Assembly: GCA_037176885.1 (NCBI GenBank)
Contig: JAWWNJ010000274.1
Coordinates: forward strand, 1 to 64,000
Direction: 5' to 3'
DNA length: 64,000 nt
From: Favolaschia claudopus
Taxonomy: Eukaryota; Basidiomycota; Agaricomycetes; Agaricales; Mycenaceae
Under the pieces are notes generated by a model. The model ran no database searches. It was given only the letters and a program-made list of their open reading frames with translations, and was not told where the DNA came from. The translations under genes and the position numbers were made by a program. The first letter of the stretch is position 1. Every line of letters starts with the position of its first letter. This document shows positions 10,982-60,158 of the stretch, piece after piece.

Positions 10982-11052
10982 TGCGTGAACCGGGAGTCGA
11001 ACCCGGAGCTAGGCCATGGGAAGACCCAATGTTACCGCTACACCATCCACGC
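10982..11052 (-). tRNA. tRNA-Gly (anticodon CCC)
   Basis: Read on the minus strand, a 71-nt cloverleaf forms. The acceptor stem GCGTGGA pairs with TTCACGC with one G-T pair, leaving discriminator A. The D-arm has the A-box string TGGTGTAGCGGTA. The anticodon stem is GGGTC/GGCCT with loop TTCCCAT, so the anticodon is CCC. The T-arm is CCGGG-TTCGACT-CCCGG, which is also a B box. There is no intron. T5 and T6 runs follow within about 40 bases. It is the one canonical tRNA I find in the window, a useful contrast to the tRNA-like array at 48-56 kb. Confidence 0.93.
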
Positions 11053-37314: not shown

Positions 37315-38668
37315 TTAGAACACGAATCTTTCGCCAATAATTTCCTCCGTGGCCTCCCACAACTTCTTCGCATTTGCTGGATCAGAGCTGTGCGGAGAGA
37401 TCTTATCGTTCGCTGCAGTAGAGTCGTCGAGGTATGCTCCGGAGACAGCTAATCAGCACCATACATCAGTTTGTTATCGTCGATTATCTGGGTAGATACC
37501 ACTCACCGTTGAGTTTTGGGTCGAACGCAGCGGCAACGGTGCTGGAAGGATAAATGAGAATTCAAAATTCCAATTAGAATTCATTGGAAGGCGTACGTCG
37601 CAGCACCCTGGGGAATCGTCTTCCATTGATGATCGTCGGTATTAGGGGTCCCATCGGGACGCAGCACACCTGTGCGTTTGAGGTGAGTATATACTTACAC
37701 TTTTCCGAAGAGGAAAACGACGAACCAATAGCCTGCATATCAGCGATAGATTCTGGTTTCTGATTTATATTCGTGTAGATGACTATCCCAGTTCGTTGAT
37801 ACTGCAAAGTAATCAAGGTGAAATGAACGCACTTCCGGGATGCAGACTATACGCATTAATCCTCCCCTTCGAGCGTTTCGAAAGTTCGATAGCTGTTAAA
37901 ATGTTGGCGCTCTTGGACTGGAAATACGCGTCCATCGACTGATATTTCTCCGCGCTCGGTTTGCCGATCGTTTCAAAATTGACACCCGTGCCAAAAGTGT
38001 GCGCTGCGCTTGAAACAAATACCACTCGCGGAACGTAGCTCGATGTACCGGCGGCGAGGAGCTTGGATGAAACCAGTTTAGTGAACAGGAAAGGGCCGAA
38101 ATGAGCTGTAGCGAGCTGAGTTTCGAGCTTATCGACGGTGAGCTTGAACGGGCCGATGGCGGCGGCGGCGTTGTGTATGAGCACCTGAACCTCTGCGATC
38201 AATTTGTCGAGATTCATAAACGGATTGCTTACGTGGATGGGCTCTGAATAAGCGTTGACTTCGGCAGCGGCCTTCCGAACGGCAGCAAGTGATGAGAGGT
38301 CAAGAATGAGGCAGCGGATATTAGCAGAAGGGACGTCTTGCTTCAGAGCATCTTCCGACAACTTAAGCCTTTGAATTCGCATCCGAGTCGCAAATCAGAA
38401 AATTAATATTAGCAATTCTGGTCAGCTAGACACACCGTTCAGCGTTATATCCAGTTATGATCACCAGATTCGCGTGCTTCGCAATGACTCGAGCGGCTTC
38501 AAAGCCGATGCCATTCAGCGATGTCCCAGTAACGAGAACTATCGAGGCCGTGAATTTTGTGGAACCCAAGAGAATGATTGACCAACCGTTTTTGCCTCGA
38601 ATCTCGTTGGCGAAGGCCGTGGCCACCTCTTCGGCAGTAGTGGTGAAGGAAAATTGAGGGGAAGACAT
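37315..38668 (-). CDS. Short-chain dehydrogenase/reductase, copy 3 (diverged paralogue)
   Basis: The start is ATG 38668 (MSSPQFSFTTTAEEVATAF). The exons give VLVTGTSLNGIGFEAARVIA, ITGYNAERC, LILDLSSLAAVRKAAAEVN, VLIHNAAAAIGPFKLTVD, VVFVSSAAHTFGTG and the catalytic FQSKSANILTAIELSKRSKG. LHPGS, VIYTNINQKPES, a hinge with PDGTPNTDDHQWKTIPQGAA and the C-terminal KLWEATEEIIGERFVF follow, with a stop at 37315. Where copies 1 and 2 have YCDTK, this copy has FQSK: the usual catalytic Tyr appears as Phe (DAYFQSKSAN). An adjacent Tyr one residue earlier could be a shifted equivalent. It is the oldest member of the local trio. Substrate unknown; activity questionable because of the Tyr position. Confidence 0.82.
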
Positions 38669-42391: not shown

Positions 42392-43570
42392 TTGCACCCT
42401 GGACCCGGCGTTGGGGTATTGTCGTATCTTGACCTATATATGCTGCCCGGGGTCAGTCGAGGATCGTATCACCGTCCATGTATAGGCAAGACACTATGCT
42501 CTTCGATTCGCTGCGAAGAGAACTGGAGAACAAGCCCACGGGTTCCGTGCCTGCAGAGGCATATGCGACGTCTTCAATTCAGGGATGCTGGAATTTTGGT
42601 GATTCTCAGCGCCGCGCATGTCAGAAACATTTTACTGAAGCCACGTTTCACCAGACTTACCTGCTACTCCATTCCCCCAATCCGCCGAACGACTTTATCC
42701 CAATCCTCACTCGTCGTCTGGCGGGCTACTATTCAGGAATACGACCTTGGCTCTCTAGCAGCAAGCTCCGAGAGCAAGGATTGGCCGCGCGCTGTGGTGC
42801 GACCACCCCTACACCTAGAGACATTGTCCTCGTCAGCAGCTGAGGCAATTGAGCCGTTCGATTCGGATTCGTGGAACGCTATGATCCTGGGCGTGCTCGA
42901 AAAAAATGCCCCCGCCGTGACTATCGCTCTTCCGACACCACTGGCAGCACCTGAAGCGTCCCCTTTCCAGATACCCTCGATGTCCTCACTCAGCTACTTT
43001 GCTTCCCGCCATTCGCCCTCCCTGTCGTCGGTGGGGAATACCTCCTCCTCCGCATCCATGACATCCTCAAGTGGTGCATCGAGCCCCACAATCCCGAACA
43101 ACACCGTAGTGGAATCCATCTCGCGCTTCAAACAAAAACCGCCATCCGCACCGTCTCTATACCTCCCGCCGCCCATCCCCAAAATCTGCTCCCACTGCCA
43201 CGCCACGCGCACTCCCCTCTGGCGGCGCTCCCCCTTCTCCAACCTCCCCCTCTGCAACGCCTGCGGGCTCTATCTCCAACAGCGCGGCAAGATGCGGCCA
43301 GCAACGCTCATCGCCATCGATGCCGCGGATGAAAGCGGCGGAGGGGATGCGGAGAGTGTTGGCATCGAGGGCGAAGACACACCGCAATGTTGCCACTGTC
43401 AGAGTCGACACACAAGCGTATGGCGAAGAGGACCAGGCGGGAAGAAGCTTTGTAATGCTTGTGGGGTGTATAAGAGGTTGAGGGGGAGGGATAGGCCGTT
43501 GGAGTTGAGAAAGAATAAGGTCAGGCCCAGGGCGAAGCATCCGAAGAAGGTCCCGATGCATGTTTCATGA
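42392..43570 (+). CDS. GATA-type zinc-finger transcription factor with two fingers
   Basis: The secure part is the second half. A Ser-rich linker is followed by finger 1 (CSHCHATRTPLWRRSP ending LCNACG, C-x2-C-x18-C-x2-C). A 37-residue acidic linker precedes finger 2 (CCHCQSRHTSVWRRGP then KLCNACGVY, C-x2-C-x17-C-x2-C). A basic tail (RLRGRDRP and KVRPRAKHPKK) ends with the stop at 43570. Both fingers keep all zinc ligands and the TPLWR/TSVWR core that contacts GATA sites, so it should act in the nucleus. The linker lacks the cysteine-rich region typical of iron-regulating GATA factors of the Urbs1/SREA type, so that role is unlikely. The N-terminal part (before about 42850) is unconvincing, and the true start may lie in another exon or frame, for example near 42478. 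Confidence 0.8.
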   Translation: MHPGPGVGVLSYLDLYMLPGVSRGSYHRPCIGKTLCSSIRCEENWRTSPRVPCLQRHMRRLQFRDAGILVILSAAHVRNILLKPRFTRLTCYSIPPIRRTTLSQSSLVVWRATIQEYDLGSLAASSESKDWPRAVVRPPLHLETLSSSAAEAIEPFDSDSWNAMILGVLEKNAPAVTIALPTPLAAPEASPFQIPSMSSLSYFASRHSPSLSSVGNTSSSASMTSSSGASSPTIPNNTVVESISRFKQKPPSAPSLYLPPPIPKICSHCHATRTPLWRRSPFSNLPLCNACGLYLQQRGKMRPATLIAIDAADESGGGDAESVGIEGEDTPQCCHCQSRHTSVWRRGPGGKKLCNACGVYKRLRGRDRPLELRKNKVRPRAKHPKKVPMHVS

Positions 43571-46680: not shown

Positions 46681-48001
46681 GTTGCTTCACTGCCTGTGCG
46701 CAAGGGGGCAGGAAGTACTAGTAGTAGAGGTAAGAAAGACTTGAAGCGCACGCAGGAAGGTGGCGGTAAAAAGCAAGCGAGGAAGAGCATGGTGAACAGA
46801 TCAGGCAAACCATAGCTTGATCGAAACCGATGGCCTTCGCCAGATTTATGTAATTGGGGAGCGAAGATGACCCTATTCCGAAGGGAAATCACGCCCGTTT
46901 GAAGACAGGAGCGGAGACAGTCAATGGACCAGATGAATACAAGACGTTCGTCGAGAGTCGATGTAGATGCGAGCATTCAATCAGGCGCCACTACGAGGTC
47001 TTGTAACCAAGAACCAGATATGAGAAGAGAGAGAAAACTGGAGTTCACATTGTGCGGTCCTGTATGAGTGCAACGAGAAAGCGAGTATTTCCGAGGGTTC
47101 CCGATTCTTTCTGCCAGCCAGCCCGCGTTGAATACAGACCCCTCGCAAACCTGCCCAGAAAGCTGCATGAATACCATCGAAAACAAGAGCAATGATCCAA
47201 GTTCTCACCGCCTTCCGGGACTTCAGAAGTTACAGGCGATAAATTGGCGATAAATGATATCCTTGCTGTGAAACTCGAACGCCGCTGAAAGCAATCAGCG
47301 TCCGGTACAAGAATGACTGCGAGCAGTCAGACGTCGTTTAAAATTCTTCCTCTCAGCAAGTACGTACCTCGCCCGGCCGCGGCATGAAACGTACCAAGTG
47401 TTTTAACGTTTCTGCGGATGTATCCGAGATTATTATGGACTCCTATCATCCGAGGCTCAATGAGCCAGTGATGAACGAAAGTGTAAGTTTCATTCGTACC
47501 TCGTCCGCTTTTCCGTCGCATGAGTCACACCCGGAACTTCAATCACAGGATGATAGAGTTAAGTATCGGCTTTGCTTGAATTTTTTGGCAAGGCTTTGGT
47601 ATACTGAGACTCTGCGAGGTTGCGGTGACGGGCTGACTACAACGCGTACAGATTGAGGTCGTCAAGCAGGGGCGAGGTCGACCGACAAAGATTCAAGCCA
47701 CTGAAGCCAAGTATCGAGTATCGACGCAGTACTTACTTACCACCCACTCCATCCAAGTCCTTGATCCGTCCTCCAGAGAGATCCGACAGCGGTAGGGGCA
47801 AGCCAGTACTGGTAGCCGTCAGAGGGGAAGAGGACGAAAAACGCCGGTTTGTTTACGTTTACTTGGCACCGGCATTACCCGCTTCCGCGCGGCTCGGCAT
47901 CCTCGGTATCCGTCTTAGCCGACGGCCAGTGCTCCACCCCTATTTAGCTTGGCTCCGACTCGAAGACCCTACGATTGATTTCGAACAGATCCAACTTGAA
48001 A
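46681..48001. other. Intergenic before the tRNA-like array
   Basis: Several 60-118 codon frames are present (for example plus-strand 47653-48009) without domains. Nothing was supported. Confidence 0.3.
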
Positions 48002-48078
48002 CCCTGTGATATAACAGAAGGATTGCCGAAGATCGAATACTTAATCCTGCGGAACGCTCGTTCAGTTCGGGCACAGGC
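48002..48078 (+). repeat. tRNA-like unit A1, eroded
   Basis: The ends still pair (CCCTGTG with CACAGG). The 3' half has TGCGGAACGCTCG-TTCAGTT-CGGGC, so the T-loop is altered from TTCGATT. The 5' hairpin of the family is not visible. T8 occurs 35 bases downstream. It is a degenerate member at the left edge of the array. Confidence 0.45.
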
Positions 48079-48257
48079 AGTGATACAGTATTAATTTCCT
48101 GTCTGTTTTTTTTCTTTTTCTCATTTTGCGTTGTTGGCAGATGGTAAGTACCGGTAAGTTCGGGAATCACACTAGCATTTCGAATTCGAGACACTGCTTT
48201 ACTTCTTCACCGCGCTGCCTGGAAATCTCTCTTGAGCTTTGTCTGTATACTGATATG

Positions 48258-48350
48258 CAGGTTTGTTGCACACGAGGGCATCCGCTCACTGGGCTGGAGC
48301 TAGAGCTGGAAGTTCCGCGGAATAATACCCGTCCGATTCGGGCTCAGTCT
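48258..48350 (+). ncRNA. tRNA-like unit A2
   Basis: This unit has GCATCCGC and its partner TTCCGCGGA, which close the variable middle stem, and an ACCCG-TCCGATT-CGGGC T-arm. The 5' hairpin is partly eroded (GCACACGAGGGC). T8 at 48373-48380. Its downstream spacer is homologous to that of A3. Confidence 0.6.
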
Positions 48351-48512
48351 GTTTGAAGAATTCTTCTCGCAATTTTTTTTGTTGACAGGTTGTCCAATTC
48401 TACGATAATCATCCTTACGCCGAATTTCCAGACTGTTTTACAGATTCTCTAACAACCTACACGCTTCATATGAGTTCAAGCTACCTAACCTATTAAAATG
48501 CTAACTACACGA

Positions 48513-48600
48513 GCCTGTGGCACTGGTGTGCATCCGCTCTCAGTATACTTCTGACAGTAGAGTTCATTCCGCGGAACGCCCGTTCGATTCGGGTACAGAC
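48513..48600 (+). ncRNA. tRNA-like unit A3
   Basis: This is a good family member. The 5' GCCTGT pairs with 3' ACAGAC with one mismatch. Hairpin GCAC-TGGT-GTGC follows, then stem TCCGC with GCGGA enclosing about 33 nt, then T-arm CCCG-TTCGATT-CGGG, which is a B box. T9 at 48626-48634 could terminate pol III. Confidence 0.72.
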
Positions 48601-48832
48601 CCCTTCTCCATCAGGCGACGTGGCGTTTTTTTTTGCTCGCTGCACAACAACAATCCTGAAACCGAACTTTCCGAACTGCTTTACGAATTCTCTGACAATC
48701 TACACATTTTACTGGGTCCACTGCTTAATACGAAACCTCCACTCTCCCCTCTACTTGAAACAGACCGCATATACGTATATTGATATTCTTCTTCCCCTCA
48801 TTGAGATGTCTCTCTGTATAATAATCTGCGCA

Positions 48833-48920
48833 GGCCTGTTGCACTGGTGTGCATCCGTTCTCAGTACTTCTGATAGTAGAGACCTATCCGCGGACCCCCC
48901 GTTCGATTCGGGCACAGTCC
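48833..48920 (+). ncRNA. tRNA-like unit A4
   Basis: GGCCTGT at the 5' end pairs with ACAGTCC at the 3' end. Hairpin GCAC-TGGT-GTGC is intact, TCCG/CGGA closes the variable part, and the T-arm is CCCG-TTCGATT-CGGG. T5 at 48946-48950. Confidence 0.72.
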
Positions 48921-48977
48921 ATTCCCTCTTCACATATCTGAGTTCTTTTTCGTTTGCTTGACGACATCGACCTCTCA

Positions 48978-49008
48978 CCGAATTCCCTGTTCGATTCGGG
49001 CGCAGGCC
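48978..49008 (+). repeat. tRNA-like unit A5, 3' half only
   Basis: Only CCCTG-TTCGATT-CGGGCGCAGGCC is present, about 60 bases after A4. The 5' half is missing, so this is a truncated copy. A T6 run follows near 49034. Confidence 0.55.
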
Positions 49009-49125
49009 GTTGCTTGAATTCGCGCTTGTGAACTTTTTTCGCTGAAGATTTTCCAAGTTTGACTTGCAAACTGGTTCACGAACGTACATGCTTCACTTGG
49101 TTTACTTCCACCGGGCACTGTCACA

Positions 49126-49209
49126 GGCCTGTCGCACTGGAGTGCATCCGCACTGAATATGGCTGAGAAGACATACGAGCGGAACGCCCGTTTGATTCGG
49201 GCGGAGGCC
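49126..49209 (+). ncRNA. tRNA-like unit A6
   Basis: 5' GGCCTGT and 3' GGAGGCC can pair in part. Hairpin GCACT-GG-AGTGC keeps pairing through a T-A change. TCCGC/GCGGA closes the middle, and the T-arm is CCCG-TTTGATT-CGGG. T6 at 49235-49240. Confidence 0.68.
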
Positions 49210-50079
49210 GTTCATCCATATTATATATGTTTTGTTTTTTGCTTGCTGGACGACAACGATCCTCACACCTCTCGAGTTTTTAGACTGCTCTACAAACTTC
49301 GCTTGGTTGCTTTACTTCTTTGCTTCGATTGCTTTACAAACTTCTCTACTTCTATTACAACGTCCATTCTACTCGAAACCGGAGCAAGTTCACCTCAACG
49401 TTCAACAGAAGCCTACGTGTTGATATCCTTCTTTGCGGCGCCGGCTTTCTCTTGGACTTTGCCTGTAACAGGTAAAAGTGAGCACGATTATTTGGAATCG
49501 GGAGGAATTGAGGCGGTGAAGAGAATGAGAGGGGGACGAAGAGAAGAACAACAACAACGAAATTGCCGAACAACAAGATAAGAGAGGTCATGGACGCGGA
49601 GAGGAGAGGAAGGACGTCGAAGCGTCCGATAGGTGCCTGATCAGTAGGCGAGACGATTGGGCGAGAACCCCGTCGATAACCGAGAACCTCGTCGATGACG
49701 CATGGAGCAATAACACCGAGGAACGGGGGTAACAGGGAAGAAGGATGTATAGTCGACCGGACGGACCCCAACGGAACGAACGACAAAAAGGAATCAACGG
49801 CGAGGGAGGGAAAGGGTGTGAAGGGGAGAGAGTGGAAGGAGCGAACGAGAAATGAAGAAACGAAAGAAGAAGAAAGAACAATCAAAGATAAATTGGACCA
49901 AGCGGTGGGGAGGAACGAGGTGGAGGTCGATCGCGTCAAGAAAGAGAAGCAAATGAAAGATGGTGCGAACCCTCAGACACCGCGCTAGACGCCGATGAAC
50001 GCCCACGCCCCTACGCCGCTGCCGCCGTCGACGACAACAAGGAAGGCCTAAACTCCGACGTCGACGTCGAACGCGAGAG
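49210..50079. other. Interval between cluster A and the CsbD-like gene
   Basis: The plus strand around 49985-50200 has an Arg/Asp-rich frame (EGLNSDVDVERESQR). The minus strand at 49355-49939 has a hydrophobic low-complexity frame. Neither has supporting splice sites or domain, so no gene is called. Confidence 0.3.
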
Positions 50080-50419
50080 TCAGCGCACACGCATCGTCGC
50101 CCCGACTGCACGCCGGGGAGGGACGATGCAGGAGACGGGAGAACGCCGTCGAGAGACGAGAACCGCGTGGTGTAGGCGGGGTCGAAGGAGTAAAATAGAA
50201 AATAGAAATGGATTTGAATGGAAGAGAAGATAGACCGTAGAGAACAAGGGAAGAGAAATAGAAGACAGATGTCTCGTCCGTTCGCGTGCATTCGCCCCAC
50301 ACTCGACGTTCGCGAGTTCCTTTTCGCGACGGGCGAAGGAAAGTGGAAGAGAGGGGAAAAGAACCAGATGAAAGGTGGAAACAAGCGCAAAAGGAAAAGG
50401 AATGCGAGGAACAACGCAC

Positions 50420-50899
50420 CCTGGGCCTCCTGCGAACCATCTCCAGTAACGGACCCCATGACGCCAGTGACGATGCCAGCGGCCTGGTTGTATGCGCCGG
50501 AAGCGGCGTCGAGGACTTGGGCGGAGACTTGCTCGACGGTGCCCTGCGGAGTTGATGTAAGTATGAGGACGCCAGGGAAGAAGGGGAGGGCACAGGAAGG
50601 ACCAGAAAGAGAGAGAAAGAAATCGAAAGAAAACCCCGCAACTCACCTTAGTCTGATCCGTCTTCCCCTGGTTCTGCATCGACTCGCTCCCCACGACGTT
50701 GCCGAAGCCCTCCTTCGCCTGGCCGACGAGGTTGGTCATGTTGCCGTTGGTTTGGCTGGGGGCGCTGTGGGTTACATCGTCAGCATTGCGTCGCAAATTG
50801 CATACGGGGAGCAAGAATAGAGTGGGAGAGGCAGAGAAGGGTGGGGCATAAAGTCAAGAACGGGGGGGAGAGATAAACGCACTTGGAAGAGGAAGACAT
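50420..50899 (-). CDS. CsbD-like / Hmp1-like small protein, 3' end not resolved
   Basis: ATG at 50899 opens a very short first exon (MSSSSN), spliced to APSQTNGNMTNLVGQAKEG, then SESMQNQGKTDQTK. After a second intron it continues with GTVEQVSAQVLDAASGAYNQ and GVMGSVTGDGSQEAQG up to 50420. The pattern (GQAKEGFGNVVGS, GVMGSVTGD) resembles CsbD-like proteins annotated in basidiomycetes as mismatch and cruciform DNA-recognition protein Hmp1. The function is taken from those relatives. A donor (GTGCGT) follows at 50419, but the last exon is uncertain. One candidate begins near 50103 and stops at 50080. The gene is flanked by tRNA-like cluster A on the left and cluster B on the right. Confidence 0.55.
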
Positions 50900-51531
50900 G
50901 GTTTCGAATACGCGTTATTCGCGGTACGGGGTTGAGGCAAAGTCAAAGTCAGAAGTCAAAAGACGACCCCCCAAAACCGCCCACCACCCGCCTTATATAC
51001 CTCCCAGCTGCGTGTCCTATTTGTCTGTCTGCGCTTCTACTTCTCCTTCTACGAGGTTCGACGAGGTTCCGCTGGGGAGCGAATAGGCTATCGACATCCA
51101 GTCTTGAATTTGAGTTTGGTCGGCTTCTAATTGAATTTTTGACGCATTGACGGATTCGACGAGTCACGGAGGGAGAAGACGACTTTGCCGTCGAGATAAA
51201 TTGCAGATAAATTCATCGATAGAAGCAGGGAGGCGAATAACCACAATCACGATGGTGGAGGGAGAAAGGAAAAACGCCACGTGGCACTGGCTGAAAATGA
51301 TTGATTGATGCGGGGATTGCCGGAACGGCACGAAATGCCGAATCAAGTTCAAGTATAAATTTGGGAGTCTGGGTGGGAGATCCAAGCGAGCCCCAGTATG
51401 TGGCCAGAGAGAATTCATAGAACAGTCTAAGGAAGGATTACAAGTAGATACTCAGACTCGACAATCTGTAAATGCCAAAGAGAGAGAAAAAATCACTTCA
51501 AAAAAGAATTGGACATCGCTCACAGTCGGAC
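50900..51531. other. Promoter side of the CsbD-like gene and spacer before cluster B
   Basis: CCTTATATACC near 50990-51000 reads on the minus strand as a TATA-like GGTATATAAGG about 95 bp upstream of ATG 50899. No coding sequence was recognised in the rest. Confidence 0.4.
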
Positions 51532-51617
51532 GGCCTGTGCCCGAATCGAACGGTCGTCCCGCGGAATGGTGTACGCCCAAGGCTATTGAGAGCGGATGCA
51601 CACCAGTGCGACAGGCC
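51532..51617 (-). ncRNA. tRNA-like unit B1
   Basis: This is the best-formed member. The minus-strand 5' GGCCTGT pairs perfectly with 3' ACAGGCC. Hairpin GCAC-TGGT-GTGC follows directly. TCCGC pairs with GCGGG-type sequence to enclose about 36 nt. The T-arm is CCG-TTCGATT-CGG. Length 86 nt. T6 (complement of 51500-51505) lies about 27 bases past the 3' end. Confidence 0.75.
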
Positions 51618-51838
51618 TGCATCATAGTGTGCTCACACTCAGTTACAGTAAACCCCCAATCGGAGAACACCGAGGCTGCGAAGAAGGAGGACTTCAAATT
51701 CAACACGTAGGTGAATTAGATAGAGAAAGAAATGGTGTGAGGATTAGAGAACAGTCCAGAAATCCGGTGCAACAATCTGCGAACAAAATAATAAAAAAAG
51801 AACAAACCAAGCCTGGCAAGCCACTACCAATATCGCAT

Positions 51839-51923
51839 GACCTGTGACCGAATCGAACGGTCGTTCCGCGGGATATTCAAGTGTCCCAGTAGTGAGAGCG
51901 GATGCACACCGGTGCCACAGGCC
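51839..51923 (-). ncRNA. tRNA-like unit B2
   Basis: The minus strand begins GGCCTGT and ends ACAGGTC (one G-T pair). Hairpin GCAC-CGGT-GTGC, stem CCGC/GCGG and T-arm CCG-TTCGATT-CGG are present. Length 85 nt. T7 (complement of 51793-51799) lies downstream. Confidence 0.74.
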
Positions 51924-52156
51924 TACGTATTGACATGTATAAGTATGTACTCACAGCCAAACCCGATCCTGAACCAAAAATTAATGCCGCATCAAGTTCA
52001 ACTTTGGAAATTGGACGCTTGGTGGGCAGCTGGTGTACACTGTGAGGCAATTCGGTAATGCAAATCGGAATCATTCATAAATTACTTGATGGGACACAAT
52101 CTGTCAACAAAATCAAAAAGAAAGAAGAAAAAACCCCACGTTCACGCATCGCGCAT

Positions 52157-52247
52157 GGCCTGCGACCGAATCGAACGGTCGTTCCGCAGGATTGTACATG
52201 GACGAGTCGAACCAAGTGAGAGCGGATGCACGCCAGTGCGACAGGCC
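52157..52247 (-). ncRNA. tRNA-like unit B3
   Basis: The minus strand begins GGCCTGT and ends GCAGGCC. Hairpin GCAC-TGGC-GTGC, stem TCCGC/GCGGA enclosing a longer variable part, and T-arm CCG-TTCGATT-CGG are present. Length 91 nt. T6 (complement of 52128-52133) lies downstream. Confidence 0.74.
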
Positions 52248-52493
52248 TGGTATACGTACTGCCAGCCATATTCCGATTTGAACTCCGGCGCTGGCAAGAA
52301 GAATTCTAGTTCATCACGTAGTCGGGCATGAGGAAGCGGAGGTGTAACAAAGATAGAAATAGCTGGAAAAATGGAATGAAACCTACTTACCTACGTCGCC
52401 AGAGAGAATTGGTCAAACGATCCGGTGCAGTTGCGATGCATTCGACAATCTGCAAAAATGAAAACCAAAAAAAACATACTCGATCCAACCTAT

Positions 52494-52583
52494 GACCTGT
52501 CCCCGAATTGAACGGTCGTTTCGCGGAAATAATGGTGAAATCTGAAGGCTATTGAGGGCGGATGCACTCCAGTGCAACAGGCT
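52494..52583 (-). ncRNA. tRNA-like unit B4
   Basis: The minus strand begins AGCCTGT and ends ACAGGTC. The hairpin is GCACT-GG-AGTGC (five pairs). CCGC pairs with GCGA-type sequence, and the T-arm is CCG-TTCAATT-CGG, with one change in the loop. T8 (complement of 52467-52474) lies downstream. Confidence 0.7.
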
Positions 52584-52839
52584 ACATCGGAGTATACTCA
52601 CGCTTTGTTACAGTAATCCTCCAATCGGAGAACGCCGAGGCTGCGGAGAAGGAGGACTTAAATTAAAATTCAACACGTAGGTGGGTTTGAGGTTGCGGAG
52701 TTGCAACAAAGATAGAAATAAAGCTGAAGAAATTCCGGTGAGGTCCAGAATCAAACCTGCTTACTTACCTACGGCGTCATATAAATTGATAGATCAGTCC
52801 AACAATCCGGACAATCTGCAAATGAAATAAAAAAGACCC

Positions 52840-52925
52840 GGGCTGTGACCGAATCGAACAGTCGTTCCGCGGGATGATCATCAACTCCAGCCAGGTGAAG
52901 CGGATGCACACCAGTGCAACAGGCC
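52840..52925 (-). ncRNA. tRNA-like unit B5
   Basis: The minus strand begins GGCCTGT and ends ACAGCCC. Hairpin GCAC-TGGT-GTGC, stem CCGC/GCGG and T-arm CTG-TTCGATT-CGG are present. Length 86 nt. T6 (complement of 52829-52834) lies downstream. Confidence 0.72.
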
Positions 52926-53280
52926 TGCATAGTGGTATACTTACAGCTTCTGAAGCTCTAATTGAATTCGAGAAAGCCGACGCAGCGAAGGAGGAATTTA
53001 AATTCAACCGTCGTTTCGGTTTCGGGGTAGGGAGCGAAGTCGTATGATAGTTATAACTTAGCTCTTCCCTAACCAATATTAATCAGTTTAGGTAGTAGTC
53101 GACAAGGAAAGTTAGGTTCAACTCGGTTCTCCGAGCCGTCAGTGGATAGGTAGGTAGGCGTGATTGAAAGAGGAGAGGGCTAGAGAGAAGAAAGTGAAGG
53201 ACATGAGTAAGGAGTGCGTTCCCGCTCTACTTAAGCTTATGCTAATATTCATTATCAGTTACCTCGCTTCAATCTTTAAC

Positions 53281-53372
53281 AACCCGTCGCGTTGGTACGC
53301 CAGCCAGATTCCATCAGAAACTCTGCGAATGTTATGAAGCGGCTTGGTCTCCTGTTCGATTCGGGAACGGAT
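53281..53372 (+). ncRNA. tRNA-like unit C1
   Basis: First member of a second family on the plus strand. It starts AACCCGTC and ends AACGGATT. The hairpin is GCGT-TGGT-ACGC: the same shape as family A/B but with different base pairs. AGCC pairs with GGCT around the variable middle. The T-arm is CCTG-TTCGATT-CGGG. T10 at 53397-53406. Confidence 0.7.
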
Positions 53373-53506
53373 TATAGGTCATGTATGACTTGGCTGTTTT
53401 TTTTTTCTGCTTCCGAATTATCATTGAGTGTGCAGTAATCGTTTTCGAGAGGGAACAAAAACTGAGAAGACAGGACTTAGATAAGCGTTTTCTGCTTATT
53501 CGCAAT

Positions 53507-53605
53507 AACCCGTTGCGTTGGTACGCCATCCGCGCTCCATAAGGGGTAAAAAGGTTTGCACCCTTCCGACGCGGTTTGGTGTCCCGGTCGATTCGGGGAC
53601 GGGTT
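53507..53605 (+). ncRNA. tRNA-like unit C2
   Basis: AACCCGTT pairs with GACGGGTT. Hairpin GCGT-TGGT-ACGC, stem CCGCG/CGCGG around a long variable part, and T-arm CCCGG-TCGATTC-GGG (first T of the loop changed) are present. T6 at 53622-53627. Confidence 0.7.
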
Positions 53606-53755
53606 CTAACATCTGCTTGGCTTTTTTCTGACTTATTCCTTTCATCGAGTTTAGAGTAATCCTAGAGGGCCAAAGAAACAAACCAACGGTTCTTGGATGA
53701 GTGAGAACCAGTGCATTCCCTGTCTACACATGCCAACAAGCACTAAGAGTTCAAC

Positions 53756-53846
53756 GACCCGTCGCGTTGGTACGCCGGCCGCACCTCATGGCGAGAGACC
53801 GAATATTGCACGCGGCTGGGTCTCCTGTTCGATTCGGGGACGGGTT
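53756..53846 (+). ncRNA. tRNA-like unit C3
   Basis: GACCCGTC pairs with GACGGGTT (one G-T). Hairpin GCGT-TGGT-ACGC, stem GGCCGC/GCGGCT (G-T at one end) and T-arm CCTG-TTCGATT-CGGG are present. It is the best-formed family C member. T5 at 53870-53874. Confidence 0.74.
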
Positions 53847-54000
53847 CTGGCATGGGCATGATTTGGCTATTTTTCTTCCCTTCAATTTTCTTCCTTCAAG
53901 TCATCATTGATTCTACAGGAAATAATCCTAGATAGTTCTGGAGAGTCACAAAGAACAGCTAGGTTAGGTACTTACATGAGCGCTCTCTGCAATTCCCAAC

Positions 54001-54091
54001 AACCCGTTGTGTTGGTTCAACACCATAAGAGGGAATAACGGTTGCACCGTTACGACGCGGCTTAGTGTCTCGTTCGAACCGGGAGCGGGTT
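54001..54091 (+). ncRNA. tRNA-like unit C4
   Basis: AACCCGTT pairs with AGCGGGTT. The hairpin is altered (GTTGTG-TTGG-TTCAAC). The T-arm CTCG-TTCGAAC-CGGG has a changed loop 3' part but still pairs. T7 at 54111-54117. Confidence 0.65.
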
Positions 54092-54291
54092 CTGGTTTGG
54101 CGATGGAGGCTTTTTTTCGTCTTCCTTATTCATCGAGTTCAGAACTATCGTAGATTTATGAAAAGACAAGCAGTCAGATGAGTAAGTAGATATCTGAATG
54201 ACCGGTATACATTTTGGCTGCCTCGAATTCCATTGGGTAGTAGTTGGAAGGCCTCAATTCTCGTTATTAGGTGGTGAGACTGTGTCCTTCA

Positions 54292-54393
54292 ACAGCCCAT
54301 CGCGTTGGTGCGCAGGTGCGGCTAGCGTACTCCATACAGCACCCACAATCAAATGTCGCACGGTTCGGTCTCCGTTCGATTCGGGTGAGGGTG
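54292..54393 (+). ncRNA. tRNA-like unit C5, partly eroded
   Basis: GCGT-TGGT-GCGC forms a hairpin with one T-G pair. The T-arm CCG-TTCGATT-CGG is intact. The end pairing is weak. T5 at 54418-54422. Confidence 0.58.
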
Positions 54394-54990
54394 CTTGAAC
54401 GGGACAGTGATGTTAGGTTTTTGTTCTGTTTTCCTTGGTCACCAGCTCAATTCCGAGGTAGATATTGTGAGCCTGAATCTCTCATCGTTGTTCTCGAAGC
54501 GAGTCAATTCCTAAGTTCAACAACGTTTTAGTTCCCACGGTTGAATTTCGGACTCTGGATCCCGCGATTGCCGGGAATCAGGGTTTCGAGAGTTACAGAT
54601 AGGGAGTCGAGACTCGACACGCGACCGTGGTAGTTTCAGCTGCATGCTACGAGTTCACAGTCCATCTTACGACCTGCAGCGGAATGAGGTTTGGGTAGGT
54701 TCGTGTTCAAGGTTTCAACTCTTTTGCATGTGAGTGGAATACCGACTGCGGCATCATGATCCGCCATCTCCCCAAGTGACCCTGCGGCGGGCCTGCGCCT
54801 CTGGGGCTCGCATCGTGCCTGATTTCGCCGTACATAAGACTGACTGTTCGTCCGTGTACAGCCCCAACAATTAGATCAATTTCCGTTCACTTGAGCTTAC
54901 TACGAGTCTTGAACGCGCTATAGGTGCTAACTATCCAGCACACAATTGAATACTACCTACATAGTGCTTTGTTCTGACGCAGAAAAACGA
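54394..54990. other. Spacer between families C and D
   Basis: No gene and no intact tRNA-like unit were seen. GACTCTGGATCCCGCGATTGC and similar stretches show no T-arm motif. Confidence 0.3.
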
Positions 54991-55078
54991 TGCCTGTAGC
55001 ATTAGTGTGTCCCCGAAACTCGTCCCAATGCGTGGTCACAGGATCAAGCGGAAGCTCGCTCGATTCGGATGCCCTGTC
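54991..55078 (+). repeat. tRNA-like unit D1, eroded
   Basis: It has TGCCTGTA, hairpin GCAT-TAGT-GTGT, GCGGAAG and CTCG-CTCGATT-CGGA. The 3' end no longer pairs with the 5' end. A T5 run follows at 55108. It is a degenerate member. Confidence 0.5.
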
Positions 55079-55225
55079 TTATCAGTAGGTATTCTGGAGT
55101 GAAAATGTTTTTGCTACCGTTTCAATGTGGCAATTTCAATCGTCTCCGAACAGTTGGTCAAGGTATCATTTTTTGCTTGTTAAGTTGTCCTTGTTGAGTA
55201 CTGAGTCCCCACTCCGATGAAGCCC

Positions 55226-55320
55226 AAGCTGTGGCATTGGTGTGTTTCCGCATTTCATAAGAGTGCTTGCCGATCGTACCTTCAAGCCTCGGAGAACCCG
55301 TTCGATCCGGGTGCCAGTTC
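55226..55320 (+). ncRNA. tRNA-like unit D2
   Basis: AGCTG can pair with CAGTT at the ends. Hairpin GCAT-TGGT-GTGT keeps pairing with G-T pairs. TCCG pairs with CGGA around the middle. The T-arm ACCCG-TTCGATC-CGGGT has five perfect pairs. T11 at 55339-55349. Confidence 0.68.
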
Positions 55321-55548
55321 TATTGTAATCTCGTGTGGTTTTTTTTTTTGCCATTGAGCGTTGGGTAGAATTTCGCAAGACATGAATGATTTATATAAAT
55401 TATCTCGTGCAGCAAAGTGTACACAAACAACAAACACAAGTCGTCCCGCTTCGGTGGGTGAAGGTTCACTAGAAGCCGGTCGCATTTCCCTAGACTGGGG
55501 TCTATACATCAAGGGAATGGCTATTCCCCCCTATATTCTGCCCGTCAG

Positions 55549-55640
55549 ATGCCCTGTAGCGCTGGTACGAAACTGTGTTTCATCAGCAATCCTCGTCCTC
55601 AAAATCGTTACACCAACCCGTTCGATTCGGGGCAGGTTAT
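55549..55640 (+). ncRNA. tRNA-like unit D3
   Basis: CCTG pairs with CAGG at the ends. The 5' hairpin is damaged (GCGC-TGGT-ACGA). The T-arm is CCCG-TTCGATT-CGGG. T7 at 55661-55667. This unit and about 100 bases of its 3' flank recur in inverse orientation at 60.0-60.16 kb. Confidence 0.66.
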
Positions 55641-55940
55641 GGTCGAGCATATAATGATCCTTTTTTTCTTCTTGTCGATCGAGGTTTCAGATTGCCTTGA
55701 ATTCTGAGATTTTCTCCTCCCACGGTAAGCAGTGTCGAATTTTCGTTATCATTCTTGATTTTGGGTTCAGGACGATTTCATCATATGATTGAAATTAATG
55801 ATCGTTCAGTGGTCGTCTGAAATAGTGAAATTCAATCGAGGTATATGTAAAATGCATAGTAAGCAGAATAAGGCATGTAAGTATTCATAGAAGATGAGCA
55901 ACGAAGCAAGGAAACAATGCATCACGAATGTATTCCGTGC
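55641..55940. other. 3' flank of D3 and spacer
   Basis: The first 120 bases (GCATATAATGATCC, then CCTCCCACGGTAAGC) are shared with the flank of unit D4. The rest shows nothing recognisable. Confidence 0.4.
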
Positions 55941-56612
55941 TCATCCAATGTTCATCTGCCAAGTCTCGATGGAATTAGGCGAAGGTGAGAGTCCGAGAAA
56001 TTTGTTGAACCCAACCAAAAAATCCACTCTCTTTACCCCGCCGTGTTTCTCCTCGCGATACCCCCGCCTTCCACGCAACCGCTCATATCGTGCTCGATAG
56101 GACTCCGACACCTGCCGCACAAGCCGCCGCGACCCCAAAGCGCTAAATTCAGCCTGAGTGACATTCACCCGCAGCGCATTGTACACCACCTGGAAAACAT
56201 CGTTGACGGTGACGTGCCGCCCATTGGAGGCGGTTACGACGATCGACCAGGGGAGGTGTGGCGTGACGAGGGAGATGCACGGCTGTGGCGGGTATACGGC
56301 GGATTCCGCCGTAGAGAGACGAGGGTGGTGCGTGTAGATGGATGATGGTGGGATTGAGACGTCGAAATTGAGAACGGGCGAGTTGGAGAAGGTGAGGAGC
56401 GGATGAGCGCGGGACTGGCGCTTCGGACGATGGGTTGCGTATTGGAGCGGGTATGGGGTAGGTCCGGGAAGGCTCGCGTAGCTGTAAGATGGTGGAGTGA
56501 CGGGACCCGATGAGGAGGCTGCGGATGAGGAGGAAGCCTCCATGAGAGGCGGGGGATTAGGAGGAGGAGAGTGGAATGTGTTCGTGGAGGCGAAGCGGAC
56601 GCGAGCTGGCAT
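55941..56612 (-). CDS. DUF6699 domain protein, 223 aa
   Basis: This is a single minus-strand frame from ATG 56612 (MPARVRFASTNTFHSPPP). The N-terminal third is Pro/Ser-rich and disordered. The C-terminal domain then has VLNFDVSIPPSSI, SLVTPHLPWSIVVTASNG, VTVNDVFQVVYNALRVNVTQ, EFSALG and GVKRVDFLVGFNKFLGLSPS. These are hallmarks of the basidiomycete DUF6699 family, whose function is unknown. An upstream in-frame ATG at 56714 is less likely because the codons between do not resemble the paralogue. A second member lies 1.5 kb away on the same strand. Confidence 0.82.
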   Translation of the reverse strand: MPARVRFASTNTFHSPPPNPPPLMEASSSSAASSSGPVTPPSYSYASLPGPTPYPLQYATHRPKRQSRAHPLLTFSNSPVLNFDVSIPPSSIYTHHPRLSTAESAVYPPQPCISLVTPHLPWSIVVTASNGRHVTVNDVFQVVYNALRVNVTQAEFSALGSRRLVRQVSESYRARYERLRGRRGYREEKHGGVKRVDFLVGFNKFLGLSPSPNSIETWQMNIG

Positions 56613-58155
56613 TTCAGAACCTGTATGCTTGTGCTTGAGAATTTCAGATGGTGGTTGAAGTTCAGGAGCTTGCGAATCCACGAAAGGTTTTATGCCACCT
56701 CGAATACAAGCCACGATTCCAAATTATGCATGCTTGGCGCATGGGTAGCAGCAGGAAAATAAAAATACCTCGCAATCAAACCTTTATCGGCAATGAGACG
56801 GGGGCGGACAACAGCACTTTGCTTCGTCTCTACAGCTTCTTGTTACTCTCGTCTTCGTTCCGTTACCTCTATTTCAATACTTACCCATTTCGAGTAGCCT
56901 GACGTACAACAGAGAACGCACGATCAACGACAATATAAAGAGTGTGGGACGATGACACGCACCGCACGGTTAATCCCCCAGTCAATCTGACTCGATGACT
57001 TTGACGCTCGCACATCACAACCAATTCAAGCGCGCGCGTATTGCTATTGGGCTGCAAGGAGCGCGAAAATAAATTGATTTGAGTGTCCATCATATCAAGC
57101 CTCGTTGAAAGCGACACAATCAAGGTGGAGGTGGTCTGTTTATCTCAGAAGTACGAATGGGAAAAACGTGCAGTACCCACCGACGCCCCAATACAGTGCC
57201 CTCCGCAGTTGATGTCAGCAAATAAACAGATGCAAGGCTCGAAATACCACTGCTTTGACTGCGACGCCCGCAATTACTCCGAATAGATACAATGTAAAGT
57301 GCGGTGGGTTCCAGAATACCTTTTGGAGATGCAATCCCACATTATCCCAGCGTCTAGTCGGAGTGGCGTAATTCGAACGAAGCCAAGACCCAATCAGGAA
57401 TGGAGCTTCTAAATCTGGATGCGAGCCTCGTGGTGAAGCAGACGTTCGGAAATGGTCGGAGTGACTGTTTCTATAGCGCAACGGTGGTTGGCGTGAGGAT
57501 TCGTATCAGTGCGGAGTGGGGGAGAGGGGAGAACAATAACAACTTACTAAGATTTGCCGCGCATCGACATGTGGAACGATTGCCTGGACCGCCTTGGTGC
57601 TGTGTACATGTAAGCCTAAGGGCAGAGGGCTATCTGAACGCCGTGTGAGACTGTGAGTGTCGGGTAGACAGACCAGATAAGTAAATCGCCCAAAAATGGA
57701 GGGATTGACAGAAAATGATCCACACCGAACAATGTGGCGTGCTGTTCAGATACGCTGCATCCGCAATCCCGCATTTCCAACAGGAGTCGGCAGAGTCACG
57801 AAAGACGATAACGCGAGGCTCGAGTTGCAGCGACCAACGTTGGCAACCCATTAACGGAAACGTTCCAATTAATACAGGTTTTATATGCGTGGTACAGTGG
57901 TAGTACATTTTTGATTCGTAATTTTGATTGAGTACAGCAGAGTGGGAGACGATTAAGCTGGGAACCAGATAGCAAATTAGCAAGCAAGCAGAGAGCCGTA
58001 TGATAACAGAGTCAAGGAAGAGAAACAAAGGAAGCAGAAGAGAAACGGCACGCATCTATACTGGACTTCAGGGCGCAAATCGCATCCGTGAAATCCATCT
58101 AGTTTTCAGATACAATCTTCCTTTCGTGAACTTTTCTCTCCCGTCCCACGGGAAT
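56613..58155. other. Intergenic between DUF6699 genes
   Basis: No confident gene. A string with A-box character (TGGTACAGTGGTAG, about 57889) has no matching B box within 100 bases and was not called a tRNA. Confidence 0.35.
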
Positions 58156-58959
58156 TCACACCATATTCAGCGACCACACATTATGCGTGGTTCCCACCAA
58201 CGGCCCCGAAAGCCCCATGAACCTCGTCCTCCCTTCAAGGAAATCCACCCACTTGACACCTCGTTCCGCCTCCGTCTTCCTCCCTGGCTCGTCCACTCCG
58301 ACGAGCGCAAGCCCCGCCACGCGCTTAAAATACGCCGTGTCAACGGCACCGCGGCGTTCCGCCGGCAACACGTCGTATTCTGCCCTCCGGATCCCGGTGT
58401 GCAGCTGTGTGTGTAGGGAAGCGAGAACGTCCAGGACGGAGACGAAGGGTGTTGTTGGGTGGGGAGGGGTGATCTGCATTGCGTGGGAGAGGTGCGGGGA
58501 GGTGAGGGTGAGGGTTGGTGTGGGGGGTAATGTCGCGGGGCTGAGGAAGGCGGGGGTTATACGAGGAGTGAGGACGGCGAGGGGGTGTGCGAGGTCGAAG
58601 ATGAGGTTTGGCGGCGCGTGTGGGGTGAAAGAGAGGAGGGAGTGGATGTGAATTGGGGACGGTAGCGGAACAGCTAGGGAGGTGGGACGAGGCGATGCGA
58701 ACGCGGCGTATTCGACGTCCGAGGGCCAAACGCTATAGACGATGGGCGCCGGTGGGGCGAATGCGCCGTCTGAGACGAGGAGCGGTTCCTCTTGGACATC
58801 CTTCGTGGCATCTTTCGTCGGTGGCGATTCCGGCTGTGTGGGAAATGTGGCGGCGGAGGGGGACGGTGGGAGAGAGGAGGTGGAGGCGCCAGGGGATGGC
58901 GTCCACGGCAGGGGCGAGTACAGGGTGTTGGTAGTGGAGAAATGGACGGTCTTGGTCAT
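58156..58959 (-). CDS. DUF6699 domain protein, 267 aa
   Basis: This is a single minus-strand frame from ATG 58959 (MTKTVHFSTTNTLYSPLP), the same opening style as the neighbour gene. A Pro/Ser-rich linker is followed by LIFDLAHPLAVLTPRITP, TLTLTSPHLSHAMQITPP, FVSVLDVLASLHTQLHTGIR, EYDVLPAERR and GVKWVDFLEGRTRFMGLSGP. Both members share the order strand, PxL, VSVxDV helix, GVKxVDFL and FxGLS, so they are tandem paralogues that diverged long ago. The role is unknown. Confidence 0.82.
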   Translation of the reverse strand: MTKTVHFSTTNTLYSPLPWTPSPGASTSSLPPSPSAATFPTQPESPPTKDATKDVQEEPLLVSDGAFAPPAPIVYSVWPSDVEYAAFASPRPTSLAVPLPSPIHIHSLLSFTPHAPPNLIFDLAHPLAVLTPRITPAFLSPATLPPTPTLTLTSPHLSHAMQITPPHPTTPFVSVLDVLASLHTQLHTGIRRAEYDVLPAERRGAVDTAYFKRVAGLALVGVDEPGRKTEAERGVKWVDFLEGRTRFMGLSGPLVGTTHNVWSLNMV

Positions 58960-60066
58960 GGTGGTGGTCTGAGACGAAGCGACGCGTGAGCCCGGCACAT
59001 CACTTACGGGAGCAAGCGCCAACCAAAAATACCAAAAGTGTTAGACGTATCACCAAGGCATCCCTTGATCCATTCGGCGTGTCGACGGAGACAGGCTGCG
59101 TCCGGTGAACAAAGTTCAGGACGGGAATAGCCAGTCAGACATGTTGAAAAAACACCGGCTTGAAGGCATATATTGCAGTTGAAGCTGCATCCGTTGGCTG
59201 AGGTGGCAAGAGTTTTTCACTGGCAGGGTAGCGGGCGTTGTTGCTATGAGCCCCCGGATCACCCAGAGGGTTGCCTTAACATAGCTTGTTGATGCATCTC
59301 TGTGCGACAGGATGAACCGCATTGAGACATATTGAGCCAGATTCGCGTGAATAGCCTTGGATGACGAGACAGCTTTAGACAGACGTCTCAGATCGACCGA
59401 GAGGCTAGTCAGATGCGGACAAGGCCTTAGTTTAGTGATGAGTTTTCGTCTCGAGACTTTGGATGATGTGAAACCGTTGAGCCTGAAGCTGCAGGTTGGG
59501 CATTTGGGTCAGATTGCAGCATGAGAGGAGAAGGAGAGGTGTTACGAATTCGTAACGCCGTCACAAATTGATTGCCCTGGGGAGATCTCCGAACTCAACA
59601 CGATCACGTGAGGGACAGGACCGTCACGCGTCTTTAACTTAGACTTTTTATGTTCAACTTGCGTCCACGCGCATTGCAGGGTAGAAATTAGGCTTTTTTC
59701 CCCCTCCAGTTGGTTAAATCAACAAAACTTCTGTTCAAAAATCGATCCGCTCTAAACTGGAAGATCGAGCTAAAAATCGAAGCAAACTGGCAATAGCAGA
59801 CGCGCTCCCAACAGACTGGTCATGAAAATTACACCGGTAGACTCCTATTGCAGAAACTGAGACTACTAAAATGAAACATTACAACGAAACTCCAGCCGAA
59901 TTAAAGTTTTAAAGCATACTCGATGAACCCGTTCTGAACCTAAATTGAATAAAAAAAACGGTGATGAAAATTGAACGCGGCTTACCGTGGGAGGAGAGAA
60001 TCTGAGAATTCAAGGCAAACCAGAAACCTCAATTAAAGAGAAAAAAGGATCATTATATGCTCGACC
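58960..60066. other. Intergenic, with a 16-bp palindrome
   Basis: A perfect palindrome GTTACGAATTCGTAAC lies at 59541-59556. The last 120 bases correspond to the 3' flank of tRNA-like unit D4. No gene was recognised. Confidence 0.4.
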
Positions 60067-60158
60067 ATAACCTGCCCCGAATCGAACGGGCCTCCGTGAT
60101 GATTTTGAGGACAAGGATTGCTGATGAAACACAGATGCGCACCAGCGCTACAGGTTAT
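60067..60158 (-). ncRNA. tRNA-like unit D4, dispersed inverted copy
   Basis: The minus strand starts ATAACCTG and ends CAGGTTAT: eight perfect pairs. Hairpin GCGC-TGGT-GCGC is perfect. The T-arm is CCCG-TTCGATT-CGGG. The unit shares the string TGTGTTTCATCAGCAATCCT in its variable part with D3, as well as its flanks. T6 (complement of 60041-60046) lies downstream. It is better preserved than D3. Confidence 0.72.

Follow-up and report, generated by a model that had tools for sequence, protein, structure and literature searches.

The window analysed here, a 64,000-nucleotide stretch of the Favolaschia claudopus genome (contig JAWWNJ010000274.1, positions 1 to 64,000; hereafter C274), carries a tandem array of small tRNA-like units in four groups, A, B, C and D, situated between protein genes. 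The array probably represents a family of non-decoding, tRNA-like RNA genes transcribed by RNA polymerase III (pol III), and the family is apparently undescribed. Among the matches listed from the open-licence PMC literature, there was no description of such a family.

The units were first detected by a repeat analysis and then by a scan for B boxes and cloverleaves. They were scored with a covariance model, R1, which contains the acceptor, D and T pairs and was trained on 34 units. The R1 search space was 110 kb, comprising the window, regions of two further contigs (C8 and C101) and the 10 kb of C274 that follow the window. Up to an E-value of 1, R1 gave 54 matches, including 52 full-length units with E up to 0.24; two bare T-arm fragments (48986-49000 and 42854-42866) were excluded from the 52-unit set. 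The window holds 19 of the full-length units, C8 18 and C101 15. Eighteen of the 52 were absent from the training set, and their scores ranged from 13.7 to 80.9 bits. As a noise control we used 0.8 Mb of unrelated DNA, in which the best of 42 R1 matches reached 18.1 bits. This DNA came from pattern scans (26 viral-contig stretches and at least 120 prokaryote-contig stretches, 80 of the latter made into loci), and 98 of the 106 viral and prokaryote control loci were scored with R1. Given this best unrelated score, the two weakest units of the window (13.7 and 15.5 bits) count by position only. A strict pattern of a D-arm half and a T arm had eight matches in the window, and 100 shuffled versions gave none. 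The tRNA-like units of the array are real.

A preliminary description had placed about 20 units of 85-100 nt, recurring every 230-350 bp, at 48002..55640. In good agreement, R1 gave 18 full-length matches within 48001-55639 (two of them at noise level), distributed over the four groups on the strands originally assigned to them (five A plus, five B minus, five C plus and three D plus). The units of the window are 80-101 nt long, with start-to-start distances of 226-342 bp within groups, and the reported homology of the spacers within groups was also seen in the repeat analysis. The interval itself was too short, as a fourth D unit lies outside it, at 60068-60156 on the minus strand.

On the plus strand, group A opens with two poorly preserved units. 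A1 (48001..48080) is degenerate, with a badly kept 5' half, and scores 13.7 bits, at noise level when taken alone; a run of eight Ts lies 25 nt downstream. A2 (48260..48351) is diverged and its 15.5 bits are likewise at noise level alone, with a C8 counterpart scoring 25.8 bits and flank identities of 0.98 and 0.88. They are followed by A3 (48512..48602, 74.2 bits), A4 (48833..48921, 73.4 bits), which was also folded singly, and A5 (49126..49210, 68.9 bits). Between A4 and A5, the repeat analysis revealed an orphan T arm with the 3' strand of the acceptor, a truncated unit at 48985..49009 (plus) with its own T-run about 25 nt further on; R1 scores it as a fragment of 14.7 bits at 48986-49000. 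At the corresponding position in C101, downstream of the counterpart of A4, this orphan 3' half is missing.

Group B lies on the minus strand and comprises B5 (51531..51617, 80.2 bits), B4 (51838..51923, 76.2 bits), B3 (52156..52247, 81.9 bits), whose unconstrained fold is near the cloverleaf, B2 (52493..52583, 59.9 bits), which was outside the training set, and B1 (52839..52925, 70.9 bits). On the plus strand, C1 (53281..53374, 71.0 bits), C2 (53507..53606, 69.6 bits) and C3 (53756..53847, 70.6 bits) are followed by C4 (54001..54092, 33.1 bits), a unit outside the training set with a broken D arm (two of four D-stem pairs), and by C5 (54294..54394, 44.8 bits), which the alignment shows to carry an 8-nt insertion past the D arm. 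Group D continues on the same strand with D1 (54991..55080, 25.7 bits), degenerate and outside the training set, D2 (55226..55320, 64.8 bits), with poor acceptor pairing (four of seven pairs), and D3 (55551..55639, 49.0 bits), a copy of the 60068-60156 unit with a damaged D arm (two of four D-stem pairs). The latter unit, D4, spans 60068..60157 on the minus strand in the B-box and cloverleaf scans and scores 68.9 bits at 60068-60156.

From 5' to 3', a unit consists of 7 nt of the acceptor, a 1-nt connector, a 4-bp D stem closed by a TGGT loop, one base, a 5-bp stem at the place of the anticodon stem with a loop of about 25-45 nt, a few further nucleotides, a 5-bp T stem with TTCGATT, and the other 7 nt of the acceptor. 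The D4 gene and its counterparts use an 8+4 split instead, with an acceptor of 8 bp and a T stem of 4 bp. In most A and B units, the letters of the 5-bp stem are TCCGC/GCGGA. The first 7 nt of the large loop, compared over 45 of the 52 units, are partly conserved as TCTCANT, ACTCCAT or ATTTCAT. For counts of D loops, B boxes and reading frames we used a 44-unit set, having dropped eight of the 52 as diverged or shifted. The D loop is 4 nt long, as had been claimed, and 42 of these 44 units have GG at its centre.

The pairing of these stems is supported by covariation. Over 16 acceptor, D and T pairs in the 34 training units, 88.9% of the cells were paired, as compared to 80.6% in shuffled controls and 21-54% when the pairing was slid; by stem, the values were 81.4% for the acceptor, 96.3% for the D stem and 93.5% for the T stem. 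Double changes occupied 71 cells, against 28.6 (sd 6.7) in shuffles, and covariation between groups was 0.398, against 0.247 in shuffles, a value that none of 500 shuffles reached. At the anticodon place, the best 5-bp stem within a small search span was full in 35 of 50 units, 29 of which begin it at unit position 22-23; the controls gave 16.0 (sd 2.9) when shuffled and 22.8 (sd 3.3) when the 3' part was taken from another group. The same stem is kept with differing letters in three counterparts of the D4 gene (TCTGT/ACGGA, TCTGG/CCAGA and TCTGT/ACAGA), and is not kept in the damaged fourth copy at 55551. RNAalifold predicted all four stems from 16 A and B units. The paired ends, TGGT hairpin, second stem and TTCGATT T arm of the earlier description are thus borne out by R1 and the covariation counts. 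On the other hand, its denial of a 7-nt anticodon loop on a 5-bp stem holds only for the loop, which measures about 25-45 nt, as the stem itself is present.

Signals of the pol III type accompany the units. Runs of five or more Ts occur within 75 nt downstream of 48 of the 52 units (50 for four or more Ts), as compared to 3 upstream (8 for four or more) and none inside the unit (2 for four or more), the background for five or more being 8-9% of the positions in the window and 28-35% of those in the array. The distance from unit to T-run has a median of 21.5 nt with quartiles of 19 and 24 (50 of the 52 units), within the originally proposed 15-40 nt, and is nearly fixed though the trailers are unlike between groups. 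T-runs occur in all four groups. The T arm contains the B box GTTCGANTC exactly in 35 of 44 units, in line with its earlier description as B-box-like, and this is the best conserved piece of the unit. CAAC immediately precedes the 5' end in 8 of the 13 C units. These signals suggest that the units are transcribed by pol III. Elsewhere in the window, default ARAGORN reported a sole tRNA gene, tRNA-Gly(CCC) at 10982-11052 (minus), with a T-run about 11 nt downstream.

The conservation pattern separates the ends of the units from their surroundings. In 48 of the 52 units, within-group identity is 0.72-0.91 over the first 25 nt and last 30 nt (0.77-0.84 for the last 30 nt), as compared to 0.42-0.57 in the centre, both flanks or spacers, and the trailers, where shuffled letters give 0.41-0.48; intermediate values (0.50-0.64) were obtained for the 10 nt that precede the conserved 3' end. 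In 13 pairs with similar flanks, which share units and are not independent, the ends were more conserved than the flanks (Wilcoxon p 0.0005), and the difference between centre and flank was -0.03 (p 0.59). So the ends of the units are held and the centre is free. In these 13 pairs the centre drifts like the flanks, with no sign of diversifying selection or of selection for particular centre sequences. When the 52 centres were searched as guides against the window and the loci labelled L009-L013, no convincing target emerged; the matches outside the arrays were four of 13-14 nt, with E up to 0.05.

C274 belongs to an assembly of 264.6 Mb. A DUF6699 protein encoded in the window shares 99% identity, across 91% of its length, with a protein of F. 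claudopus, a mushroom of the Mycenaceae, and the fungal origin implied by the preliminary description is right. For F. claudopus CIRM-BRFM 2984, the part of the genome report considered here gives 265 Mbp and 86.8% duplicated BUSCO genes (PMC10905254), so most loci in the assembly have more than one copy. It also describes sequencing of mRNA, a type of data in which small RNAs of the kind predicted here may go undetected. The same four-group array is present at two further syntenic places, on C8 and C101, which accounts for the total of 52 units. The tandem amplification proposed earlier is supported. The flanks of C8 and C101 match the window in long blocks of 86-92% identity, with one outer C8 piece at 69%, and across the array and the CsbD stretch the matching pieces are mostly 67-89% identical. 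All three loci, which we take as alleles or homoeologues, carry the groups in the order A to D with one strand pattern, at copy numbers per locus of 4-5 A, 4-7 B, 4-5 C and 3-4 D. Genome DNA searches with each of the four groups found no copies beyond C274, C8 and C101, and single-unit B, C and D searches at E up to 10 (21, 6 and 4 matches) returned the same three loci only. The family is thus confined, in these searches, to one locus in three versions. Of the known units, the searches with single units recovered 21 of the 29 in groups A and B, 6 of the 13 in C and 4 of the 10 in D, so that diverged copies elsewhere can escape them.

Among the neighbouring genes, a CsbD-like gene lies between groups A and B, at about 49.9-50.9 kb on the minus strand (Pfam score 28.5 against a cut-off of 40), and its DNA is 75-78% identical in the other two loci. 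A segment with DUF6699 genes (about 55.9-60.4 kb) has the opposite orientation to the array from that seen in C8 and C101. In the window, this segment lies between two inverted D-type units (55551-60157), and such units may have mediated the inversion. Further away, three similar and apparently duplicated open frames, all on the minus strand (27411-28118, 31935-32528 and 37813-38394), look like short-chain dehydrogenases. This label comes from reading the sequence, and a Pfam search of one of the three frames gave no match.

When the 5-bp stem defines the frame, 10 of 44 units have U33 and 17 of 44 have R37, and the triplet at positions 34-36 varies both between and within groups. Moving the frame by one base gives U33 in 20 of 24 A and B, 7 of 10 D and 1 of 10 C units, with other triplets that still vary. 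ARAGORN called no array unit in its default and intron modes; relaxed ARAGORN (-ps with introns) called four units, which it assigned to Met, Ile, SeC and Ala, and placed an intron in three of these. Within 47900-55900, no Rfam tRNA family matched up to E 10, and the sole Rfam match up to that value was a ribozyme family at E 3.5, far below its gathering score; this fits the preliminary description, whose author knew of no described fungal family with this layout. Given the scarcity of U33 and the varying anticodon, the units are not ordinary decoding tRNAs, as had been proposed. We reject that candidate on these grounds, together with the 4-nt D loop, the lack of ARAGORN calls in default and intron modes, and the canonical A-box pattern, found in 0 of 44 units.

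The explanation that we favour, and hold to be reasonably likely, is that the array is a tandem family of small pol III-transcribed, non-decoding tRNA-like RNA genes whose ends are under purifying selection. The transcript would begin at the 5' end of the cloverleaf or immediately ahead of it, the T arm would serve as B box and the T-run would act as terminator, giving predicted precursors of 95-129 nt (median 117). The RNA would fold as a tRNA-like cloverleaf that keeps the elbow elements, namely the GG of the 4-nt D loop and the TTCGATT of the T loop, and its anticodon arm would bear an unconstrained hypervariable loop with no constant anticodon. Given that the elbow is kept and the anticodon is not, with a hypervariable loop in its place, the product probably acts outside decoding. 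It would be a structured RNA bound by proteins that recognise tRNA-like ends, and purifying selection on these ends would maintain the family. Like pol III transcription, we infer processing, protein binding and the non-decoding role from sequence features. A bolder version, in which a new eukaryotic RNA class uses a tRNA-like scaffold to present different 25-45 nt arms as decoys, guides or adaptors, with the arm differing in most of the 15-19 copies per locus version, seems unlikely to us.

Several observations weigh against a family of functional tRNA-like RNAs. The covariation rests on few independent events because the units go back to a small number of ancestors: in groups A and B taken by themselves, a double change is seen in only 1 of 21 pairs, the further pair types across all groups show no excess (21 against 21.7 shuffled), and the pairs with a double change number 9 against 6.5 shuffled, a value reached by 24 of 500 shuffles. 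RNAalifold on all 34 units gives the D and T stems without the acceptor. The cloverleaf lies within 2 kcal/mol of the free optimum in 13 of 43 units and within 4 kcal/mol in 21 of 43, the folding z-scores of eight units range from -3.14 to +0.37, and several copies have decayed. The absence of a canonical A box and the trailer of about 21 nt, against about 11 nt in the one ordinary tRNA gene of the window, point the same way, as do the splice-like flanks of group B discussed below.

A tie to intron-containing tRNA genes or their pseudogenes, with the variable centre as the intron, seems rather doubtful, though several features recommend it. The centre drifts at the flank rate, as an intron would, the partly conserved stretch of about 7 nt past the 5-bp stem is as long as an anticodon loop, shifting the frame by one base restores U33 in most A, B and D units, and three of the relaxed ARAGORN calls bear introns. 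However, those four calls disagree in identity, the stem-set frame is poor in U33 and R37, the shifted frame fails in group C, anticodons vary in both frames, and the D loop has no room for A14. Moreover, paired ends maintained across three diverged locus versions would be unexpected in pseudogenes. An origin of the family from an intron-containing tRNA is possible. The D loop also recalls selenocysteine tRNA (tRNA-Sec), which typically has a 4-nt UGGU loop containing GG. In the canonical frame, the anticodon position reads TCA in 16 of the 24 A and B units, and one relaxed call was SeC. Yet tRNA-Sec has a 9+4 acceptor/T arm, a 6-bp D stem and a long variable arm, whereas the alignments show the units to be 7+5 with a 4-bp D stem and no variable arm. 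RF01852 had no match in 47900-55900 up to E 10, and in the genome none up to E 0.001 among the 53 of 27333 candidates scored. We therefore reject tRNA-Sec genes or relics, which we regard as scarcely credible here.

An alternative that concerns at least group B is that the units are RNAs carried in the introns of a spliced host transcript made by pol II, in the manner of host genes of small nucleolar RNAs, with the T-run acting as polypyrimidine tract. Splice-like flanks, defined by a GTRNGY at most 45 nt upstream and a pyrimidine-rich YAG site at most 110 nt downstream, surround 11 of 16 B units (window 51450-53010, minus, and counterparts in loci L009 and L011) as compared to 1.5% of window positions, and 8 of the 13 C units are likewise followed by the 3'-type signal alone. 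The 11 of 16 amount to few events because the B copies are tandem duplicates, and 5 of the 16 lack one or both signals. None of the 13 A units, none of the 13 C units and one of the 10 D units has both signals, yet 35 of these 36 have a run of five or more Ts, and we consider a host intron quite improbable. The B signals may have been passed on with the surroundings of a single ancestral repeat, or they may point to a host RNA that is spliced. The prominence of the B box and the position of the array between protein genes would also suit arrays that bind TFIIIC as chromatin boundaries, with no functional RNA. Such a boundary predicts neither the covariation of the acceptor, D and anticodon stems nor the nearly fixed T-run distance, and on this account the pure DNA element was rejected as very unlikely. 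Rated slightly lower still are parts of mobile elements, either a tRNA-derived short interspersed nuclear element (SINE) or solo or tandem long terminal repeats (LTRs) of a Helenus-type terminal-repeat retrotransposon in miniature (TRIM) with a pol III promoter in the LTR. The homologous spacers would fit, and in the part of the source considered, Helenus TRIMs with tRNA-like LTRs are reported from some Agaricomycetes and tandem arrays are reported for the family LTR-11_DR (PMC10886601). There, a functional RNA is deemed unlikely for Helenus (PMC10886601). Conservation in the units seen here tracks the stems and not promoter boxes alone. The preliminary description had named a match of the units plus flanks to a known SINE consensus with target duplications as what would overturn it; the copies were found only at three syntenic loci sharing copy order and orientation, which speaks against a SINE, though diverged copies could escape. 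With covarying stems and no dispersed copies found, both SINE and Helenus were rejected.

Non-coding RNA genes without homology to described families are hard to spot in the genomes of fungi. In the present case, such a gene is marked directly by its covariation, its conserved ends, its terminators and its synteny. If the non-decoding tRNA-like units are transcribed, they would constitute an undescribed pol III RNA of mushrooms, and, if our reading is true, a case in which the tRNA body was retained while decoding was lost, the D loop being minimal like that of tRNA-Sec.

Compared with canonical nuclear tRNA genes, the units share the 7-bp acceptor, the 5-bp T stem with its TTCGATT loop, the 5-bp stem at the anticodon place, the D-loop GG and the T-run, but they differ in the 4-nt D loop without room for A14, the 1-nt connector, the lack of a constant anticodon or U33, the loop of about 25-45 nt and the trailer of about 21 nt. 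With tRNA-Sec (RF01852) they share the 4-nt TGGT D loop with GG, and they differ in the 7+5 split (8+4 in one D gene), the shorter D stem and the lack of an Rfam match. Serpula lacrymans is an Agaricomycete. Its tRNA-Ser(UGA)-like elements, as far as the excerpt considered describes them, are likewise tRNA-like with a confused isotype, but are high-copy and identical (PMC8450103), whereas the array units are diverged and were found at one locus. Helenus TRIMs and tRNA-derived SINEs, reported in fungi in the part of the source considered, have a tRNA-like pol III promoter in common with the units (PMC10886601). The units differ from them in their single syntenic locus, their covarying stems and the lack of dispersed copies in our searches. 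A genome search for the shoulder domain of the major vault protein (MVP) gave no match, and control genomes were equally silent. Vault RNAs (RF00006) have paired conserved ends, a B box and a hypervariable middle, and occur in small clusters. The units show the same conserved paired ends around a variable centre, and they differ from vault RNAs in having no Rfam match and in possessing a full cloverleaf with a D hairpin.

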